DNA from: Aliiroseovarius sp. Z3
Lineage (GTDB): Bacteria > Pseudomonadota > Alphaproteobacteria > Rhodobacterales > Rhodobacteraceae
DNA length: 64,000 bases
Reading direction: 5' to 3'
Assembly (NCBI RefSeq): GCF_029105185.1
Contig: NZ_JAFMZK010000001.1
Location: forward strand, 186,001 to 250,000
Part shown: piece by piece, positions 2,274 to 30,965 of the stretch
Numbering within the stretch: position 1 is the stretch's first letter
Layout of the letters: each line of letters opens with the position of its first letter
Notes under the pieces: generated by a model
The model's input: only the letters and a program-made list of their open reading frames with translations
Database searches by the model: none
What the model was told of the DNA's origin: nothing
Program-made: the position numbers and the translations under genes

Positions 2274-3208
2274 ACGCCGACCATGCCCGCTGGATTTCGA
2301 CCTTTCTGGAAGCCCAGGCGGCCGAGCTTGATGCGTCCGAAAACACACTGTTGGCCTATGGGCGCGACCTGAAAGGGTTTGCTGAGTTTGCGGATGAGAA
2401 AAGGATCGGGTTTGCTGACATAACCCGCGCCGACATCGAAGCCTTCATGGTTGATTGCGACACGATGGGGCTGGCGCAATCAACCCGCGCGCGCCGCCTG
2501 TCTGCCATCAAGCAGCTTTACCGCTTCGCTTATGAAGAAGGGTGGCGCACAGACAATCCGGCGATCAAGATCAAGGGGCCGGGGCGGGCGAAATCCTTGC
2601 CAAAAATCCTGAGCGAAGATCAGGTTGAGGCGTTGTTGACCACCGCCCGCAATCACGGCCGCAACCGTGACGACCACCTGCGCAACACCTGTCTGATGGA
2701 ATTGCTTTATGCCACCGGGATGCGGGTCAGTGAACTGGTCACCCTGCCCGTCGCCGCCGCACGGGGCGAACCGCATATGCTGCTGGTCAAGGGCAAGGGC
2801 GGCAAGGAACGTATGGTCCCCCTGTCCGCCCCGGCCCGCGATGCATTGGCCGCATGGCTTGCCGCCCGTGACGGGGCCGAGGATGACGCACGCATAAAGA
2901 CAGGCGCGAAACCATCGCCTTTTTTGTTTCCATCGGGTGGCAAAACCGGTCATCTGACCCGCCATCGTTTCTATGGCTTGATCAAAGAGATCGCCGTGGC
3001 CGCAGGCGTTTCGCCCGCAGCGGTGACGCCCCACCGTTTGCGCCATGCCTTCGCCACCCATCTTCTGGCGCATGGCGCGGACCTGCGATCCATCCAGACC
3101 CTTCTGGGGCATGCCGACATCTCGACCACCGAGATTTACACACATGTGCTTGAGGAACGCCTGAAAGACCTTGTCCTGACCCACCATCCCCTTGCGGACA
3201 CGGATTAG
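2270..3208 (+). CDS. xerD: Tyrosine recombinase XerD
   Basis: Site-specific recombinase that with XerC resolves chromosome dimers at dif. The 312-residue length is normal. The N-terminal core-binding domain (about 1-105) precedes the catalytic domain, which contains the full set: R152 (ATGMRVSEL), a Lys in VKGKGGKE near 176-179, H255 and R258 (PHRLRHAF), H281 (GHADIS) and the nucleophile Y290 (TTEIYTHV). The start ATG overlaps the previous stop as ATGA. It sits in a stable chromosomal context and has no cargo or att sites beside it, so it is read as housekeeping XerD rather than an element integrase. Confidence 0.95.
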   Translation: MNADHARWISTFLEAQAAELDASENTLLAYGRDLKGFAEFADEKRIGFADITRADIEAFMVDCDTMGLAQSTRARRLSAIKQLYRFAYEEGWRTDNPAIKIKGPGRAKSLPKILSEDQVEALLTTARNHGRNRDDHLRNTCLMELLYATGMRVSELVTLPVAAARGEPHMLLVKGKGGKERMVPLSAPARDALAAWLAARDGAEDDARIKTGAKPSPFLFPSGGKTGHLTRHRFYGLIKEIAVAAGVSPAAVTPHRLRHAFATHLLAHGADLRSIQTLLGHADISTTEIYTHVLEERLKDLVLTHHPLADTD

Positions 3209-23466: not shown

Positions 23467-23533
23467 ACGTTCATCCCCCACTTCGCATCACGCAAAGATA
23501 CGCGACATGACGTCGGTTCTATCTGACATCAGA

Positions 23534-23557
23534 GTGGTGCCCAAGGAGAGACTCGAA
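23534..23557 (+). repeat. Left direct repeat of the tRNA-Leu island (att-like)
   Basis: 24 bases identical to 30805-30828, the 3' end of tRNA-Leu(CAA): part of the T arm, the acceptor strand, the encoded CCA and one base beyond. Same orientation as the tRNA copy. Identity stops sharply on both sides, as expected for an integration crossover duplication. Confidence 0.85.
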
Positions 23558-23745
23558 ACCCGGCTTCACTCGACGTCACACTGTTCCACAATATTTGACC
23601 GTTAACTTGTGTCACTGACGACTTAGCCGAAGTTCCCTACCAGCCTGATCTACAGCTCGCCTCCTCATGTCGAAGCGATGCACTCCAAGTCATTTGCATC
23701 AGTCGATCTAGCTGGGCGTGTGCGCCGATAAGAGATTGCCGTCAC

Positions 23746-25983
23746 CTAGTCACTGCAGATCTGGTCTAAAGCGCGTTCGAAATCCTGAATTTCAACTTGA
23801 TATGGGAGCACAGGAAAACGTTCCGATGCGATCAACCCATCAACAAAACGCCCGAGGATCCAGTGATGTTCATGCCCCCGGTATCCGGAAAGCACCTGGA
23901 AGTAGTTCAAACAAGCCTCTCTGGCTGACATAACTCCGACTTTGATAGGTTCGCAGGCAAAAAGCACATTCGTCAAAGCCGCCCCTGTTGGCCCGATAAT
24001 TGCCCGTGCTTCGGCCATCATTTTTACCTGATCAAGCAGTGACAAGCTCGCTGGATCCAGAATTTCGAAACCGCGTTTTTCCGCCAGTTCCAAGAGTTCG
24101 GACTCGTTTAGCAATGGCCTTCGCTCGGAATCGATCTCGCGTCGCGAGAAGTAGATGTTACGACTGCGCTTCCGAGTGCCTACCAACTGCTGAATTCGCT
24201 CGCGTAATGGCTCGAAATATTGCGGCTCCAGCATTTCCGTCATGCGCGGTGGGTCGGGAAGAATTGCATCTCGAAAACGATAACGCACACCTGCCTCGAC
24301 TTTGAATAGTTGCTCGTCTTTGAACCCCATCAGCTCGAGAAACGTCAGTCCCCAGCCAGGCGTGTCGGAATCAATTGCGATTTTTCGCCCGTCCAATGCT
24401 CCGATCTTTGCAAGATACGGCAACCGGCCGAAATTCTGAGCGACCGCATGGAAGAAGTTATCGTAGTGCGCTGGCGAACCGCCCAGCAACACAACCGGAG
24501 CATCGACGTTTACGCTCTCACAATCATCCACAATCAACGCATGTGAGCCGGCGGCGGCAAGAATATGGTCAGTCTTCCGCAAAAAATGACTGGGATCTTC
24601 GGGTCCAAACAACTTGTCATCTTGCCAAATGTAGCGACGATCAAACACGCACAAGTCATTGACCTGTCGGCAGTTCATCGCACGAAGATTCAGACTTTCG
24701 GTCAACTCAAGCCGTTGGTTTTCCGCATATGCGTTAAACCGGAAGTCCAATGTCGATTTTGAATGCTTGTCCGCTTGCCCATCCAGTTTGGCGATGAAGT
24801 CTTGCTGATGACCAAAGGGAACTACCCGTCCCTTACCTGAAAGTCCTTTCCACCGGTTTTCAAACATATCCAGCGCATCTTGTTCTGACCCCGCCATGAG
24901 TGCGGCATCCAATGCAGCATCTTTCAGCCGTTTGTTTCCTTTTGGTGTTTCGTCAACTTCCGCTGAAAAGCGACAAATCTTGGCGTAGAAATCCAGATCA
25001 ATCTCGATGCCATAGCAAGTATGTTTGTACAACAATATCTTCGACAACAGCGCATTTGCGTCTGCGTGCGTGGGCGCATGTCCGAGAGCTTCCGCACACA
25101 CAATGTGGGCGGTGTCGAGTACGGTCCAAAAGTTAGCCAGATAGCTTTCTTTTTCCAATGCTCCAAACCGTGCCAGGCTTTTGGTTTGGCGACTTTCCGA
25201 TCGAACAACAAATGGCAACGCCACGCATGGTTGGAAGAGTTGAGCTGCAATTGCAGCTTGTTGGCTGGCATGAGTGTCTGAATCTGCCGATGAAGCATTT
25301 CGCGCAATCTCGGTGGTAGCCGGAAGGATATGCGAGAGCCAATGCGCTTGACTGCCAAACGCCTCTTCAACCTTGGCGTTTGAAAACTCGGTTTCTATGA
25401 TGCGGTTGACCGCCTGTCTTACCTTCGCCGAATCTCCATGTTTGTAGGAGTTGGACACCATTCGAAACGCCGCAGTGTTACGTACCTTGGCCTGTAACTG
25501 TTGATCACTGCTTATATCCTCGAAAAGCTCGATAGCGCGTTCTCGGTCGCCTGATCGCAAATAAGCATCAGCCGCCTTGAATCGCCCCTTATAGGGCAAT
25601 GAACTCTTCATATCACCTGCCTCAAAAGCCCTGATGTAGGATTCTTCGCTTCGGGTATGGAAAGCCAGGAGTACGAGCAGTTTGCTACTATTTTCTTCGC
25701 TGCCTTCTGCCCGGACAAACTCCGAGAGCTTCTCGATCGGAGGTGCGTCTTTGTTTTCAAGTATGCCAAGCGCTATGGCCTTTTGGGTTTTCGATGGGAC
25801 AGACGCGTTCTTTCTGAACATGTCAGACAGCCCCGCGATCAACGCATCACCCTTTGCCTCGCGGGCCAAATCGACATATTTTCTGAATTCGTCACCATCC
25901 TGGTAGCCTGCGCGATAACGTAAAGTACGCCTTCTCAAAGCACTTAGAAGTTTACGCGCTACGAGTGTTGTATCAGAGCCCAA
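23746..25983 (-). CDS. GT61-family glycosyltransferase with long N-terminal helical region
   Basis: About 745 residues. The C-terminal 300 match the GT61 (DUF563) family of glycosyltransferases: GGSPAHYDNFFHAVAQNFGRL, RKIAIDSDTPGW, RNIYFSRREIDSERRPLLNE and the closing IIGPTGAALTNVLFACEP. The first 400 residues are helical and contain TPR-like stretches (AADAYLRSGDRERAIELFED). It probably transfers the modified sugar or a neighbour in a surface glycan. The start is read as TTG 25983 because GGGAGAG lies 6 bases before it; TTG 25998 has none. It is the last gene of the island operon and lies next to the left repeat. Confidence 0.87.
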   Translation of the reverse strand: MGSDTTLVARKLLSALRRRTLRYRAGYQDGDEFRKYVDLAREAKGDALIAGLSDMFRKNASVPSKTQKAIALGILENKDAPPIEKLSEFVRAEGSEENSSKLLVLLAFHTRSEESYIRAFEAGDMKSSLPYKGRFKAADAYLRSGDRERAIELFEDISSDQQLQAKVRNTAAFRMVSNSYKHGDSAKVRQAVNRIIETEFSNAKVEEAFGSQAHWLSHILPATTEIARNASSADSDTHASQQAAIAAQLFQPCVALPFVVRSESRQTKSLARFGALEKESYLANFWTVLDTAHIVCAEALGHAPTHADANALLSKILLYKHTCYGIEIDLDFYAKICRFSAEVDETPKGNKRLKDAALDAALMAGSEQDALDMFENRWKGLSGKGRVVPFGHQQDFIAKLDGQADKHSKSTLDFRFNAYAENQRLELTESLNLRAMNCRQVNDLCVFDRRYIWQDDKLFGPEDPSHFLRKTDHILAAAGSHALIVDDCESVNVDAPVVLLGGSPAHYDNFFHAVAQNFGRLPYLAKIGALDGRKIAIDSDTPGWGLTFLELMGFKDEQLFKVEAGVRYRFRDAILPDPPRMTEMLEPQYFEPLRERIQQLVGTRKRSRNIYFSRREIDSERRPLLNESELLELAEKRGFEILDPASLSLLDQVKMMAEARAIIGPTGAALTNVLFACEPIKVGVMSAREACLNYFQVLSGYRGHEHHWILGRFVDGLIASERFPVLPYQVEIQDFERALDQICSD

Positions 25984-26007
25984 TTCTGTCTCTCCCAATC
26001 GTCGAGG

Positions 26008-26934
26008 TCAGCGCGCGCGCGACAGCAAACAGCCAGCCCACGATAATCCGACTCCAAAGCCGGCCAGCAAAAGCCGTTCTGCGCTAGCAAAGCGTTCATC
26101 ACAAAGCATAAGGGGGATTGAGGATGACACAGTATTCCCCGTCTCAGCAGCCATGAACGGAGCTTTTTCCGAAGAAACGCCCAAACTACTGCCGATCGTC
26201 TCGACGATGTAGCGGCTTCCTTGGTGGAGCAAATAGTAATCGACATCTTGGACATCGAGACTTTGCTCGCCCAACAGATCTTTTATCATTTGGGGCACCA
26301 CCTGTGCAGAGAAGACAAAGACGCCCCTGCCATTCATGGTCAATTCTCTTTGATCGTTGGTCGTGATCGCGCGCCCCTTGCTTCCATCACTTCCAAACAC
26401 GAAGCGTCCAAGCGACCATTGCGGCGTATCACTCAGCAGTGTGGCCGTGGCGGCATCACCGAACAACAAGGCAGTGTTCTTGTCTTCTTCGTTCAAAATC
26501 TTGGAGTACGGATCGGCCGTCACAAACAACCCGCGGGTCATGCCATTGCTTTCCATGAATGACTTTACCACTGACAAGCCCATGACAAACCCTGAACACC
26601 CAAGACTGACATCAAACGTTGCGCAGGACACGGGCAGTGACATTTTCCCATGCACTATCGCGCTGGTGTGGGGAATGCCATGACCATCTGGATTTTGCGT
26701 ACACACAACAAGGCATTCGATTTCAGCCAAATCCAGACCTGTTTTTGCAACCAGATCATTAATTGCCGCGACGCACAGATCAGAGGTTTCATCGTTTTCG
26801 TCTTTCCGGCGCGCATGCAAGAACCCCGTTTTATCGCGTAGAAAACTCTCATCGACGGAAAAACTTTCCATAAGATCGCCTTCCGTGCGCCCCCCAGACG
26901 GCACATAGCTTCCGATGGCCTCTATCCCGATCAT
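26008..26934 (-). CDS. FabH-like 3-ketoacyl-ACP synthase III
   Basis: A thiolase-fold condensing enzyme, 308 residues. The KAS III triad is complete: Cys113 (DVSLGCSGF), His237 (YLLHQGSRYI) and Asn267 (AETGNTVSSSIP). It probably starts or elongates a short acyl chain on the ACP encoded by the same operon, though KAS III relatives can also act as plain acyltransferases. The N-terminus GIEAIGSYVPSGG is family-typical. The start overlaps the stop of the preceding 207-residue gene as ATGA. The housekeeping fabH of Rhodobacterales normally sits by plsX, so this is a second, dedicated copy. Confidence 0.9.
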   Translation of the reverse strand: MIGIEAIGSYVPSGGRTEGDLMESFSVDESFLRDKTGFLHARRKDENDETSDLCVAAINDLVAKTGLDLAEIECLVVCTQNPDGHGIPHTSAIVHGKMSLPVSCATFDVSLGCSGFVMGLSVVKSFMESNGMTRGLFVTADPYSKILNEEDKNTALLFGDAATATLLSDTPQWSLGRFVFGSDGSKGRAITTNDQRELTMNGRGVFVFSAQVVPQMIKDLLGEQSLDVQDVDYYLLHQGSRYIVETIGSSLGVSSEKAPFMAAETGNTVSSSIPLMLCDERFASAERLLLAGFGVGLSWAGCLLSRAR

Positions 26935-27554
26935 TTTTTCGCTTCCATGAAGTAGATCTCCCCGGCCTCGATACCATCAAAGCTGACGGTGCTCTTGTAG
27001 ATACGCGCCGGTGCATCCGTTTGTGACGTGATCTCGATGTTCTGTGGCGTTTCAGGCCAGAACTTGAAATCGGCACGAACAAACAACCAATTTGTTGGCA
27101 ACTGGGTTTCAGTGTGCAGGCACATTCTGAGATGTTTGTTGAGTGGTACAACCTGTTCGATGAGAGAAAAATCAGCCAAGACACCGCTGGAAACCCTGCG
27201 CCCTGAAACCTCACATTGGGATACGATCTTCTCCTCGTCATATGGCTTTCGCAAACCTGCCTCCTGCCCGTTACCTGCAGGTCGTGCGGCTATATACACA
27301 GAGCTTTCATCGGCGCTGAGAAGGCTCATCTTGACGACCCATGTGGCGCTGTCAGTGACGATAGGTGCCTCCGAAACCGCAATCTCGATTTCAGAGCCTT
27401 CGATCATGTTGTTCACTGCGAAGGTGACGCGCCCGCTTGAAGCCGGGGCATACCCATGCTCTTGGCCAATGGCGCGCATTTCGTCAAACAAATCCGTCCC
27501 ATGCAAATAGGTACGAGTTCCCTTGAAGGCGATCTTCTTCTTTATGATGTCCAT
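26931..27554 (-). CDS. Unrecognised 207-aa protein of the acyl-sugar island
   Basis: A soluble protein of 207 residues without signal peptide or membrane helix, predominantly beta-strand by eye. Notable stretches are FKGTRTYLHGTDLFDEMRAI at the N-terminus, GRVTFAVNNMIEGSEIEIAV and FKFWPETPQNIEITSQTD. I cannot assign a family. It is sandwiched between the LpxD-like acyltransferase (13-base overlap) and the FabH-like gene (ATGA overlap), so it is almost certainly part of the same pathway. A hotdog-fold dehydratase or thioesterase role or a chain-length accessory is conceivable, but no catalytic motif is visible. Confidence 0.75.
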   Translation of the reverse strand: MDIIKKKIAFKGTRTYLHGTDLFDEMRAIGQEHGYAPASSGRVTFAVNNMIEGSEIEIAVSEAPIVTDSATWVVKMSLLSADESSVYIAARPAGNGQEAGLRKPYDEEKIVSQCEVSGRRVSSGVLADFSLIEQVVPLNKHLRMCLHTETQLPTNWLFVRADFKFWPETPQNIEITSQTDAPARIYKSTVSFDGIEAGEIYFMEAKK

Positions 27555-28456
27555 TCCGCAAACTTTCTCAGCGTTCTCTTGTGATCCATCGCGAAGGGTG
27601 ACGATACGCAGCCGCCCTCGGGAACGGATCGGGCGACAACCGCACCGATCTCAATTCTTGCACCATTGCCAACGCTAATCAGATTGCGCACGACTGCCGA
27701 TGGACCAATCCACACATCATCGCCGATTTTCGAGTAGCCAGCGATCTGCACTGACCCCGTAATGGTTGTTCGGCTGCCAACCTCGACGCCATGACCAAGA
27801 TGGGCTGCGACACTGATAATGCTGTCTTCACCAACGCTGGTGAAAGCCGGATGGAGCGCCTTTTGAACAATCGCCCCGGAAAGAACCTGCGCGCCCTTGT
27901 CCAAAAATACACCACCAGCGTGCAGAACTCTCAGAAGTTTGCCGTCGAACCGCTTGTAGAAGTGGCCATCCGCACCAATGATCGCCCCAGCTCCGACCAG
28001 AACGCCCTCGGACAATACACTGCCGGATCGCACAATCGCCCCTGCTTCGACGCACGCGCCGTCTGCGATTGAAACATTCTCTTCGATGATCGCTTTTGGG
28101 TGTATGTCGGCCTTGGAACTGATACCGGGCACCAGATCGGGACGCATTCCACTTGCAGCCATATGGTTGTGCAGCAAGTAGAATGTTCTTGTCGGATCAT
28201 CCGCGACCACGGCACCGCAAGACCCGGTTAAATGCCCAGCCAAATCCGGGGTGGTCACGACTGCCGAAACATTTGAGTTTTCAAGCGCCTCTCGCAGGAA
28301 GCGTTGTGTTGCAGCCAACACAAGAGACTTTGGAAACCGGGCAGAGGCGAAATCCGTTCGCCCAACATGTGCCTGCCCTTTCACATGCGCGCCGGGAACG
28401 ACCGTGGCCAGCTCAGCAAGAGCCCATTGTGCGACCTGCGATGACGTGCCGACCAT
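27542..28456 (-). CDS. LpxD-like N-acyltransferase (left-handed beta-helix)
   Basis: A 304-residue hexapeptide-repeat acyltransferase. The N-terminal ~100 residues resemble the LpxD nucleotide-binding domain (VVPGAHVKGQAHVGRTDFAS), followed by long left-handed beta-helix repeats (ADIHPKAIIEENVSIADGA). The segment AAHLGHGVEVGSRTTITG (H219, H222) aligns with the catalytic His region of LpxD, and the next stretch VQIAGYSKIGDDVWIG also follows LpxD. LpxD uses 3-hydroxyacyl-ACP to acylate an amino sugar. Here the adjacent ACP gene (3 bases upstream) suggests the same chemistry on the 3-amino group made by the aminotransferase. A second lpxD for lipid A is expected elsewhere in the genome. Confidence 0.85.
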   Translation of the reverse strand: MVGTSSQVAQWALAELATVVPGAHVKGQAHVGRTDFASARFPKSLVLAATQRFLREALENSNVSAVVTTPDLAGHLTGSCGAVVADDPTRTFYLLHNHMAASGMRPDLVPGISSKADIHPKAIIEENVSIADGACVEAGAIVRSGSVLSEGVLVGAGAIIGADGHFYKRFDGKLLRVLHAGGVFLDKGAQVLSGAIVQKALHPAFTSVGEDSIISVAAHLGHGVEVGSRTTITGSVQIAGYSKIGDDVWIGPSAVVRNLISVGNGARIEIGAVVARSVPEGGCVSSPFAMDHKRTLRKFAEWTS

Positions 28457-28459
28457 AGC

Positions 28460-28693
28460 CTATTGCGACACAACAAGTTCGACGATGTTTCTGGGTGTAT
28501 TCAACTCGTCATAAAGCTCGTCTGAGATGGTAACACCCGCCACCTCTTCCACCTTCATGACCAGCGTCGCCTTGTCCAGCGAGTCAATTCCAACATCTTC
28601 CAAAGACGCCTCTTCAGAAAGCTCAGACCAGTCGCGATCCGGAAACTGCTCTTGAAGTATCGAAAGGAAGGTGGCGTGTGTAAACTGGGACAT
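28460..28693 (-). CDS. Dedicated acyl carrier protein
   Basis: A 77-residue acidic four-helix carrier protein. Ser38 in the GIDSLDKATLV motif is the phosphopantetheine site, and EDVGIDSL with the downstream MKVEEVAGVTISDE gives the typical helix II/III pattern. GTGAGGAGTTTCC before ATG supports the start. It is not the housekeeping acpP (which in these bacteria sits by fabF/fabG) but a private carrier for the island's KAS III and acyltransferase. A 181-base gap separates it from the aminotransferase gene upstream; I see no gene there. Confidence 0.9.
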   Translation of the reverse strand: MSQFTHATFLSILQEQFPDRDWSELSEEASLEDVGIDSLDKATLVMKVEEVAGVTISDELYDELNTPRNIVELVVSQ

Positions 28694-28874
28694 GGAAACT
28701 CCTCACGAAATATTGCGATCTCTGGCGTGCGTTGGCCTACTGGGCGCTTAAAAGCTTTATCGACCTTTGCCCCAGAGCACCAGAGACAAACGGCACCTAA
28801 ACGTTCCAGTCAACCACCCTAGATTGCAGCGATCAGAAAGCGGCACGAACCTGCGCGTTCAGCACCCTGCATCG

Positions 28875-29975
28875 CTACAACTTCGGAACCACATCACGCA
28901 TGGCCCCGATCACGTCGTCGACCTCGTCATCGCTCATATGCGGTCCGATCGGCAAACTGAGGCACTGGGCACATATCTTCTCGGTTACCGGAAAGGATGT
29001 TCCAGCGAAATCACTGACATATGCGCCGGCCTTGTGATTTGGGATCGGATAATGCTTCAACGTTGGGATGCCGCGTTCGCGCAATTTCACTTCCAGCAGA
29101 TCGCGCTTTGAGTGACGCACAACAAACAAATGCCATACGGGCACCGATTGAGCGGCAACGGTGGGAAGGGTCAAGGACTTCAACTCCGCGAATGCCTCAA
29201 GGTAACGCGATGCTATTTGTCGGCGCCGTCCATTCCATTCACCGAGCACTTTCAACTTTACCGAAAGAACTTCTGATTGCAGCGGATCCAATCGCGAGTT
29301 TTGGCCCTGAACATCGTGGACATATTTTTCAACAGAGCCGTAGTTGCCCAATACGCGACACGCCGATGCCAAATCCCCGTCGTTCGTTGTGATGGCACCG
29401 CCATCCCCAAAGGCGCCAAGGTTTTTACCGGGATAGAAACTAAAAGCCGCAGCATCACACATCGAACCGACATGCGCAGAACCAACGCACGCACCATGGG
29501 CTTGCGCTGCATCCTCGATCAGTTTGATCTGATTGTTTTCACACAGGTTTTTCAACGGTGAAACATCGGCAGGATTGCCATAAAGATGGACTACAATGAT
29601 TGCACGCGTTCGGGACGTGACAGCGGCCTCGACCAATGTCAGGTCCATGTTCATGTCAGCCCAATCCGCATCAACCGGGACAGGCTTAGCCCCGACGAAG
29701 GACACTGCAAGCCAGGTTGCAATGAATGTGTGCGCAGGCACGATGACCTCGTCGCCCGGCCCGATGCCCATGGCGCGCAAAATCAATACCAGTGCATCCA
29801 AGCCGTTGCCTGCCCCAACCGCGTGCGCAGCCTGACAATACGCCGCGAACTCTCTCTCAAACCGATCCACGCTCGGGCCACCAATAAAGTAGCCCTTGGC
29901 CATTACATCGGACATCGCCAGATCAATTTCGTCTTTAAGCGCTGTGTATGTGGAGCCAACATCCAAGAACTGCAT
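28875..29975 (-). CDS. DegT/DnrJ/EryC1-family sugar aminotransferase (FdtB-like)
   Basis: A 366-residue PLP-dependent nucleotide-sugar aminotransferase. Key features: GNGLDALVLILRAMGIGPGD, VIVPAHTFIATWLA, EDAAQAHGA (PLP-stacking region) and the Schiff-base Lys184 in SFYPGKNLGAFGDGGA. Directly after an FdtA/QdtA-type isomerase (2-base gap), it most likely aminates dTDP-3-keto-6-deoxyhexose to a dTDP-3-amino-3,6-dideoxyhexose (Fuc3N or Qui3N type). Which epimer is made depends on the isomerase and cannot be read here. Confidence 0.93.
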   Translation of the reverse strand: MQFLDVGSTYTALKDEIDLAMSDVMAKGYFIGGPSVDRFEREFAAYCQAAHAVGAGNGLDALVLILRAMGIGPGDEVIVPAHTFIATWLAVSFVGAKPVPVDADWADMNMDLTLVEAAVTSRTRAIIVVHLYGNPADVSPLKNLCENNQIKLIEDAAQAHGACVGSAHVGSMCDAAAFSFYPGKNLGAFGDGGAITTNDGDLASACRVLGNYGSVEKYVHDVQGQNSRLDPLQSEVLSVKLKVLGEWNGRRRQIASRYLEAFAELKSLTLPTVAAQSVPVWHLFVVRHSKRDLLEVKLRERGIPTLKHYPIPNHKAGAYVSDFAGTSFPVTEKICAQCLSLPIGPHMSDDEVDDVIGAMRDVVPKL

Positions 29976-29977
29976 CG

Positions 29978-30391
29978 TTACCCTTTCCGCGCGCCGACCC
30001 AGGCGACGTACTCTTCATACTCATAGATGTAGTCATTCGTGTCATAGACATCGGACGCAAACACGCCGACAACCGTTTCGGGAACGAAGTCGTCAATGTT
30101 CCGCCATAAGCCGGGCGGCACATAAAGAATCTGATCGGGACGTGCTAGTTCAAAGCGTCTGTTGCGCTCACCATCATCCAGAGTCACTGTGACGGACCCA
30201 CTGAAGCAGACCATCAACTGATGCAGTGTTTTGTGAGCATGCTCCCCCCGGCGCATGCCAACCTGTGCATTAAAAAGGCAATAAAACCGCTTCATATCAA
30301 ACGGAAGATCTTCTTTTTCTAAAACAAAGAGCCCTCCCCGTTTGTCGTGAAACGTCGGTGCCGAAAAAAGTCTGACTCTATCAAGCGACAT
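29978..30391 (-). CDS. dTDP-4-keto-6-deoxyglucose 3,4-ketoisomerase (FdtA/QdtA-like cupin)
   Basis: A 137-residue cupin of the WxcM/FdtA family. It has the diagnostic RRGEHAHKTLHQ (R48, E50, H51, H53), an early DKRGGLFVLEK, and the late YVPPGLWRNIDDF. These enzymes move the keto group of dTDP-4-keto-6-deoxy-glucose from C4 to C3, giving the substrate for 3-amination. GGAG lies 5 bases before the ATG. First gene of the island operon. No rmlA or rmlB is in the island, so the dTDP-sugar precursor must come from the host chromosome. Confidence 0.92.
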   Translation of the reverse strand: MSLDRVRLFSAPTFHDKRGGLFVLEKEDLPFDMKRFYCLFNAQVGMRRGEHAHKTLHQLMVCFSGSVTVTLDDGERNRRFELARPDQILYVPPGLWRNIDDFVPETVVGVFASDVYDTNDYIYEYEEYVAWVGARKG

Positions 30392-30804
30392 GACTACTCC
30401 AATATTGAATAACGGCTAGGCCGCTTGGACTGCCGCGAGTGATAGTTGCTATTCTACGCAATGCAAGCCGTAACATCAGGCGACTGTGGCGGAGTTTCAA
30501 CAAGTCTCCGTATCCGCCAAGCGTCGGAACGGCCTTCCACCCTGAATATATCTGTCGTAGTTCGTTTTCTAACCATGCAAGAAAGCACGATGCAATGCTG
30601 CTTACCTCGGAACAGAATGCGACGCAAACTGGCCCGCCTTAATCTGATGGTTCAGTTCTGATGTTGGTGAAGGCTCGGTCTGGTTGGGCTCTGAGTTGGG
30701 TTCCGATCCCTGACGCAATCGCTCAACCGACACTGTGGTCATTTGAACCTGCGCTTTGAACGAATAGTCACACGCCCCCCAGGGTCAAAAATTAGAGGGA
30801 TGCG
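30392..30804. other. Non-coding right part of the island (about 410 bp)
   Basis: No open frame here looks like a protein and no integrase remnant could be read on either strand. It contains the likely promoter of the island operon near its left end. The stretch next to the repeat (AGGGTCAAAAATTAGAGGGA) is A/T-rich and may carry the recombination arm region, but that is speculation. Confidence 0.5.
30439..30466 (-). promoter_or_regulatory. Candidate promoter of the island operon
   Basis: On the minus strand TTGCAT, 16 bases, TATCAC, about 50 bases upstream of the isomerase ATG. Both hexamers deviate from the sigma-70 consensus at two positions. Confidence 0.3.
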
Positions 30805-30828
30805 GTGGTGCCCAAGGAGAGACTCGAA
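30805..30828 (+). repeat. Right direct repeat (3' end of tRNA-Leu)
   Basis: The second copy of the 24-bp repeat, lying at the 3' end of tRNA-Leu(CAA). It covers the encoded CCA, the discriminator, the 3' acceptor strand and part of the T arm. Confidence 0.85.
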
Positions 30829-30891
30829 CTCTCACGCCCGTGAAGGCGGGGGATTTTGAATCCCCTGCGTCTACCATTCCGCCACTTGGGC
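30806..30891 (-). tRNA. tRNA-Leu (anticodon CAA)
   Basis: Minus-strand class II tRNA of 86 bases with an encoded CCA. The acceptor stem pairs GCCCAAG with CTTGGGC, the anticodon stem GGGGA/TCCCC holds loop TTCAAAA giving CAA, a long variable arm is present, and the T loop reads GTTCGAGTC. Its 3' end is duplicated at 23534-23557, marking it as the integration site of the adjacent island. Confidence 0.96.
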
Positions 30892-30965
30892 ACTGCGATG
30901 GGATTACCCAAGCGCCGGGGCAAGGTCAACGAGGTTTTGCCCTGCGCCTCGCGTTTTTCTTGCGG

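Follow-up and report, generated by a model that had tools for sequence, protein, structure and literature searches.

A probably fixed, integrase-less genomic island at tRNA-Leu(CAA) of Aliiroseovarius sp. Z3 carries a putative acyl-amino-sugar pathway

We analysed a stretch of 64,000 nucleotides (the window, to which all positions refer unless a contig or other sequence is named) from Aliiroseovarius sp. Z3 and found that the 3′ end of its tRNA-Leu(CAA) gene is the integration site of a foreign-looking segment of ~7.3 kb. This segment is an integrase-less, tRNA-associated genomic island of a kind that is already known, with an anatomy like that of a cis-mobilizable element (CIME) and a coherent acyl-amino-sugar cargo; its fresher parts are the combination of cargo genes and an uncharacterised hotdog partner. 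With a probability of roughly 0.7, we favour the reading that the segment was inserted site-specifically at the tRNA-Leu(CAA) 3′ end, that its integrase was lost or never brought along, and that it is now a fixed CIME-like cargo block. Site-specific recombination would have placed the segment in the lineage of Aliiroseovarius sp. Z3, and the integrase would later have been lost, or the segment may have arrived without one.

The intact tRNA-Leu(CAA) gene, the integration target, is located on the minus strand at 30806-30891 (tRNA call; 57.4 bits with the Rfam tRNA model), and its 3′ end is repeated directly and without mismatch at the far border of the island. The proximal attachment repeat (30805-30828, minus strand) consists of the intact tRNA 3′ end and one further base, and the distal one (23534-23557, minus strand) is a displaced tRNA 3′ end, the left neighbour sequence of which abuts the tRNA in relatives. 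The spacing is 7271 bp, in agreement with the initial annotation of the window, which had described a perfect 24-bp tRNA-Leu 3′-end repeat in the same orientation 7.27 kb away. Identity covers exactly 24 bp and ends there on extension. The repeat comprises the 23-nt tRNA 3′ end, from the first base of the T-loop (TTCGAGT on the tRNA strand, a start that we assigned by reading the sequences) through the encoded CCA, plus one G. Because a G also precedes TGGTGCC in eight of the nine empty-site loci that were read and contain this word (a tenth locus lacks it), the 24th base may be due to chance or may belong to the site. When up to three mismatches were allowed, the repeat was found at two places in the window (0 expected from 100 shuffles). 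The initial annotation had pointed out that copies at many unrelated chromosomal positions would speak against an island; the genome (3,519,893 bases) contains two exact copies and no third.

We compared the locus with a genus set of 21 genomes, Aliiroseovarius sp. Z3 and 20 others with one genome per species, which were queried with the island, with the left flank, and with the tRNA and its DctM side. In 18 of the 20 other genomes, which formed the assessable set, both flanks had a match; the remaining two were G001, which is without the left flank gene, and G017, which is 56% complete and in which neither side was matched. In 16 of the 18, the left flank is joined directly to the tRNA, as had been predicted for an empty site. 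The empty site is exact to the base in three of these (G012, G007 and G015), where the sequences that we read have the flanks one base apart, this base being the common G, and 13 more have the expected flank spacing (within 12 bp), as calculated from the unaligned query end. The two exceptions, G003 and G009, have ~1.4-1.6 kb of extra DNA between the flanks. In G003, this DNA encodes a WYL regulator and a glyoxalase-family protein, and the retrieved left side contains no repeat of more than 10 bp from the tRNA of this genome; the longest such repeat in G009 is 11 bp.

The presence of the same genes in the core genome of relatives had been named beforehand as evidence against an island, and the island DNA had no match in any of the 20 other genus genomes at E ≤ 0.001. 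The idea that the segment consists of ancestral core genes that were lost by the relatives, for which we found no support, is hardly credible given the joined site in 16 of the 18 assessable genomes, the foreign composition described below and the finding that two of 394 family genomes, Aliiroseovarius sp. Z3 itself included, have the hotdog gene.

The island looks foreign by composition. The G/C content of 23558-30804 is 0.525, whereas 170 equally long, overlapping windows across the 64 kb range from 0.549 to 0.618 and average 0.585; the lower G/C that was noted at the outset stands as a deviation from the surroundings. The tetranucleotide distance of the island is 0.267, while the windows average 0.115 and reach at most 0.159, and third-position G/C is 0.523-0.601 in the island genes, compared with 0.622 and 0.767 in the two flanking genes.

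That the island has no integrase, as stated by the initial annotation, was supported by both of our searches. PF00589 (E ≤ 0.001) had 11 matches in the genome and none in the island; the match inside the window (2606-3157) lies within a 312-aa open reading frame (ORF) that we take to encode a Xer protein. When 23501-30900 was searched by tblastn for similarity to 26 recombinases (E ≤ 1), 12 weak matches resulted, none of them convincing, and one query (L034) was discounted because its chosen frame is not recombinase-like. No transfer genes were present among the Pfam matches of the seven cargo genes. Remnant tRNA islands may be missing their own integrase.

Integrase-bearing islands are present elsewhere in the same genome and in the family. 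Within the Aliiroseovarius sp. Z3 genome, islands with an integrase match lie at tRNA-Lys(TTT) (C5:38442-50913) and at tRNA-Phe(GAA) (C4:499832-514887), with repeats of 47 and 46 bp, respectively, that start from the anticodon loop. An exact search of the family with the 23-mer matched 12 of 394 genomes, only Aliiroseovarius sp. Z3 twice. Because the exact 23-mer misses variant tRNAs, we also used a degenerate tRNA-Leu(CAA) 3′-end pattern, which matched 93 of 296 family genomes and which islands at other tRNA variants would escape. Besides Aliiroseovarius sp. Z3, same-strand pairs on one contig were found in G235 (36.3 kb) and G375 (11.1 kb), and two copies on different contigs in G148 and G064. 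Tyrosine integrases of 346-347 aa are encoded 77-88 bp from tRNA-Leu(CAA) in G375, G235 and G148, next to quite different neighbouring genes, and the repeats are 57, 64 and 57 bp long, respectively, the ends in G148 lying on two contigs. The integrase of G375, the sole one of the three that was scanned, scored 28.1 bits with Pfam at a cut-off of 27.1; the two others are 59% and 85% identical to it, and three phages recorded from Pseudanabaena and Microcystis encode relatives with 57-61% identity.

Evidently, tRNA-Leu(CAA) is an integration target in the family, too. The elements of G375, G235 and G148 resemble the island in the target gene, in the end of the gene that is used and in the duplication of the 3′ end, but they have an integrase gene beside the tRNA and repeats that extend to the anticodon loop, 57-64 bp compared with 24 bp. 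The place of this integrase gene corresponds to the right non-coding end of the island (30392-30804, 413 bp), in which there is no notable ORF and no plasmid match.

Because identity begins exactly at the first T-loop base, we infer that the segment was inserted by a tyrosine recombinase with its crossover point in the T-loop. The same exact start weakly favours a different, T-loop-specific integrase over a longer repeat that was later trimmed. Such trimming is the core of an explanation that we regard as unlikely but worth serious weight and that overlaps with the favoured reading, so that the two are not mutually exclusive: a standard island with a repeat of ~46-60 bp and a distal integrase would have decayed through one deletion that ran from within the displaced copy into the island, took out the integrase and left 24 bp of the repeat. 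This would account at once for the shortness of the repeat and for the lack of an integrase. The repeats in all five integrase-bearing comparisons begin at or within ~2 bases of the anticodon loop (assigned by reading), and the tRNA-Lys(TTT) island has its integrase ORF ~200 bp from the displaced copy. Against it, we estimate that a deletion would end at the exact first T-loop base by chance in only ~1 of 30 cases, and the integrase of the family elements at tRNA-Leu(CAA) is located at the opposite border, next to the intact tRNA.

Several observations weigh against the reading that we favour. The 24-bp repeat is shorter than those of all integrase-bearing comparisons that were measured (46-47 and 57-64 bp), and a T-loop-limited integrase has no example among these comparisons. 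No remnant proves that the island ever held an integrase; the best weak tblastn match (E 0.006, 51 aa) lies inside the glycosyltransferase gene, and a further one (L035, E 0.038, 18% identity over 49 aa) in the right non-coding end. The cargo is without a ketoreductase, RmlA or RmlB, RmlA and FabG not having been searched for genome-wide, and the structural model of the 207-aa protein has a pLDDT of 63, a low confidence that concerns above all its first half.

The short repeat and the lack of an integrase would also fit homology-facilitated illegitimate recombination of a fragment with a tRNA-Leu 3′ end at its terminus, with no integrase taking part. At word length 9, the core and a single 9-bp inverted match are the only repeats that the two inner ends of the island share, which is in line with such an event. 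The repeat is, however, bounded by the T-loop and the CCA end, the usual limits of site-specific integration, and tRNA-Leu(CAA) is an integrase target in relatives, and we give this explanation little credence.

The initial annotation had left two possibilities, a fixed remnant or an element that depends on a helper in trans, and this alternative stands. A search of the Aliiroseovarius sp. Z3 genome for an integrase of the G375 type gave no match (E ≤ 0.001), which leans towards a fixed remnant; the 11 tyrosine-recombinase matches elsewhere in the genome are candidate helpers. A living cargo-only element, which would consist of its cargo between attachment sites and depend on a helper integrase in trans for its movement, would be in keeping with these 11 matches, with the perfect state of both ends and with the open reading frames. 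It appears improbable to us, as the genome holds no third copy of the core, which leaves no resident helper that shares this core, and has no match to the integrase family known from tRNA-Leu(CAA). Furthermore, no second copy of the degenerate core was found in the 20 other genus genomes, and among 295 other family genomes, both of those with linked same-strand pairs carry an integrase. A more specific version, in which we believe only faintly, is a living unit with minimal T-loop sites and a portable acyl-donor cargo that is moved by a non-resident, T-loop-specific tyrosine integrase, for example that of a visiting phage or integrative and conjugative element (ICE). If it were true, the cargo, built on a new portable acyl-donor module of KASIII, hotdog protein and ACP that pairs with different acyltransferases, would exchange the surface glycan exploited by phages.

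A viral helper was sought with a 22-mer and none was retained. The 22-mer occurred in 19 stretches of the viral collection, and in 17 of these it belongs to a recognised tRNA-Leu with the anticodon TAG; in L058, it lies at the end of the stretch, where no tRNA was called, and in L059, it was rejected as a T-loop match since the attachment-like site extends to the anticodon arm. L059 (IMGVR_UViG_3300017730_001413, 3-698 and from 1606 on) contains a stretch like the 3′ half of tRNA-Leu(CAA), a probable phage attachment site, together with genes that we read, without a family call, as those of a phage RNA polymerase and a tyrosine integrase.

Further observations were made on recombinases and tRNA genes. 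In the Aliiroseovarius sp. Z3 genome, a tRNA-Ser(GCT) gene lies beside an integrase gene, with no displaced copy of at least 12 bp in the rest of that stretch (L044) and one 13-bp match in L091; the same genome has two near-identical tandem tyrosine-recombinase frames ~1.4 kb apart (C3:11157-11609 and C3:12543-12995; L028 and L029). In G001 (L017:2700-3730 and L036:720-7450), the resident tRNA-Leu(CAA) keeps approximately its first 41 nt (95% match) and is broken in the anticodon loop; a search of 60 kb did not reveal its 3′ half. The adjoining DNA encodes a divergent intact tRNA-Leu(CAA), a Cap4-like nuclease and a serine recombinase of 536 aa, along with a fragment of a phage terminase. This arrangement resembles tRNA-dependent lysogeny, which the part of the source available to us describes with a tyrosine integrase (PMC10865867), unlike the serine recombinase of G001.

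All seven genes between the repeats are on the minus strand, as initially annotated; six were taken from the ORF listing, and the gene of the 76-aa acyl carrier protein (ACP) was read separately at 28460-28690. A Pfam match above the cut-off was obtained for six of the seven proteins, the 207-aa protein being the one without. First in the row is an FdtA/QdtA-type dTDP-4-keto-6-deoxyhexose 3,4-isomerase (29978-30391, 137 aa; PF05523, 143 bits), which matches FdtA and QdtA structures with E values of 1e-25 to 5e-24. It is followed by a DegT/DnrJ/EryC1 sugar aminotransferase of the FdtB/QdtB type (28875-29975, 366 aa; PF01041, 368 bits), with QdtB as the second-best match in the PDB (E 4e-103), and by the ACP (PF00550, 35 bits), which carries a GIDSLDKAT motif in the alignment. 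The next gene (27542-28456) encodes an LpxD-like hexapeptide N-acyltransferase of 304 aa (PF00132); its top NCBIfam match, PRK00892/LpxD, is under the cut-off of that family, and its top sequence matches in the PDB are LpxD proteins. The 207-aa protein (26931-27554) belongs to no Pfam or NCBIfam family and is, judging from its model, a probable hotdog-fold protein and the probable partner of the 3-oxoacyl-ACP synthase III (KASIII) encoded next to it; a weak Pfam match to DUF3203 (E 0.14) was disregarded. KASIII itself (26008-26934, 308 aa) matches PF08545 and PF08541. Last is a glycosyltransferase of family 61 (GT61; 23746-25998, 750 aa), with PF04577 at residues 515-682 (75 bits) and a long N-terminal part without Pfam match. 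The left non-coding end (23558-23745) contains no notable ORF and none of the 12 weak recombinase matches, and promoter and terminator scans yielded nothing beyond the shuffle level.

Judging from family and sequence matches, the seven genes most likely serve the synthesis and N-acylation of a dTDP-3-amino-3,6-dideoxyhexose and the transfer of this sugar, and would work as a single pathway, consistent with the single biosynthetic theme that had been noticed from the start. The island has the FdtA/QdtA isomerase and FdtB/QdtB aminotransferase pair of the Fuc3N/Qui3N pathway, and dTDP-glucose 4,6-dehydratase (RmlB) is encoded elsewhere in the genome (C9:153051-154052, 493 bits at a cut-off of 365). 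Chromosomal RmlA and RmlB would supply dTDP-4-keto-6-deoxyglucose, which FdtA would isomerise before the DegT enzyme aminates C3. KASIII and ACP, perhaps with the hotdog protein, would provide an ACP-bound short acyl group of the 3-oxo or 3-hydroxy type. The LpxD-like enzyme would transfer it onto the sugar amino group, and GT61 would link the finished sugar to a surface polysaccharide or protein.

Homologues of six of the seven cargo genes, four of them in the same order, are present on plasmid unnamed3 of Pontibrevibacter nitratireducens (NZ_CP049814.1), which was typed as conjugative. There, the order is ACP, LpxD-like, hotdog, KASIII, followed by FdtA and DegT, among polysaccharide-type genes. 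Identities are 50% for ACP (58 residues), 46% for the LpxD-like protein, 29% for the hotdog protein, 54% for KASIII, 39% for FdtA and 50% for DegT, and the KASIII residues C113, H237 and N267 are the same in both proteins. A second assembly of this species has at least five of these six genes, with the ACP under the length asked for. The plasmid cassette thus resembles the island in the order of the four genes and in the addition of FdtA and DegT, and differs in its location on a plasmid, in the order of FdtA and DegT, and in having other glycosyltransferases, with no GT61 annotated in the stretch.

In the family, the only other genome in which the hotdog gene was found is G368 (E 9.6e-4, barely within the limit), a contig of which (L042, 337-4283) carries hotdog, KASIII and ACP genes beside those of an aminoglycoside-acetyltransferase-like and a DUF4910 protein. 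Because this neighbour differs from the LpxD-like enzyme, the three-gene core appears to pair with different acyltransferases. Contig searches resulted in no relative for the 207-aa protein and in one for the KASIII alignment, Pontibrevibacter. A blastn search of plasmids with the whole island gave 16 records, the best 10 of these 16 all on DegT genes; GT61 had two plasmid records covering 14-26% of the query, and KASIII had 25 records in phages, all at identities below 60%.

Among known systems, the island has the marks of a tRNA island in its 3′-end direct repeat at the far border with the tRNA intact, its unoccupied site in close relatives and its deviating composition, and the integrase-type insertion at an intact tRNA that was initially proposed is well in line with these; an integrase of its own is the mark that was found neither by the PF00589 search nor by tblastn. 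According to the part of the published definition available to us (PMC5704250), a CIME is like the island in keeping both attachment repeats, in having no recognised integration or transfer gene, here among the seven genes, and in its use of a conserved gene 3′ end; it differs in that, for the island, descent from an ICE or an integrative and mobilizable element and mobilisation in cis are not shown and no tandem element is present. Tycheposons, as far as the source at hand describes them (PMC10872708), are cargo islands at tRNA genes marked by a tyrosine recombinase; the island shares the cargo at a tRNA gene, but no tyrosine recombinase was detected in it. The available part of the report on the viosamine island of Pseudomonas syringae pv. 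tabaci (PMC3927599) lists an aminotransferase, KASIII (vioS), an acyltransferase (vioB), ACP, a reductase, a methyltransferase and a glycosyltransferase. Common to both islands is a single gene block, directed at an acylated dTDP-amino sugar, that unites an aminotransferase, KASIII, an acyltransferase, ACP and a glycosyltransferase. The Z3 island differs by FdtA with DegT, which would aminate C3, by the LpxD-like acyltransferase, the hotdog-like protein and GT61, and by the lack, among its seven genes, of the 3-oxoacyl-ACP reductase (vioR) and methyltransferase (vioM) named in that source. No published description of the Z3 island was among the matches listed.

Overall, the island is a cleanly bounded, lineage-specific case in which a whole putative pathway for the decoration of surface sugars is present as one small block at a tRNA gene. 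Within it, the group of KASIII, hotdog protein and ACP, which includes one uncharacterised protein, appears to be a reusable acyl-group supplier for sugars.

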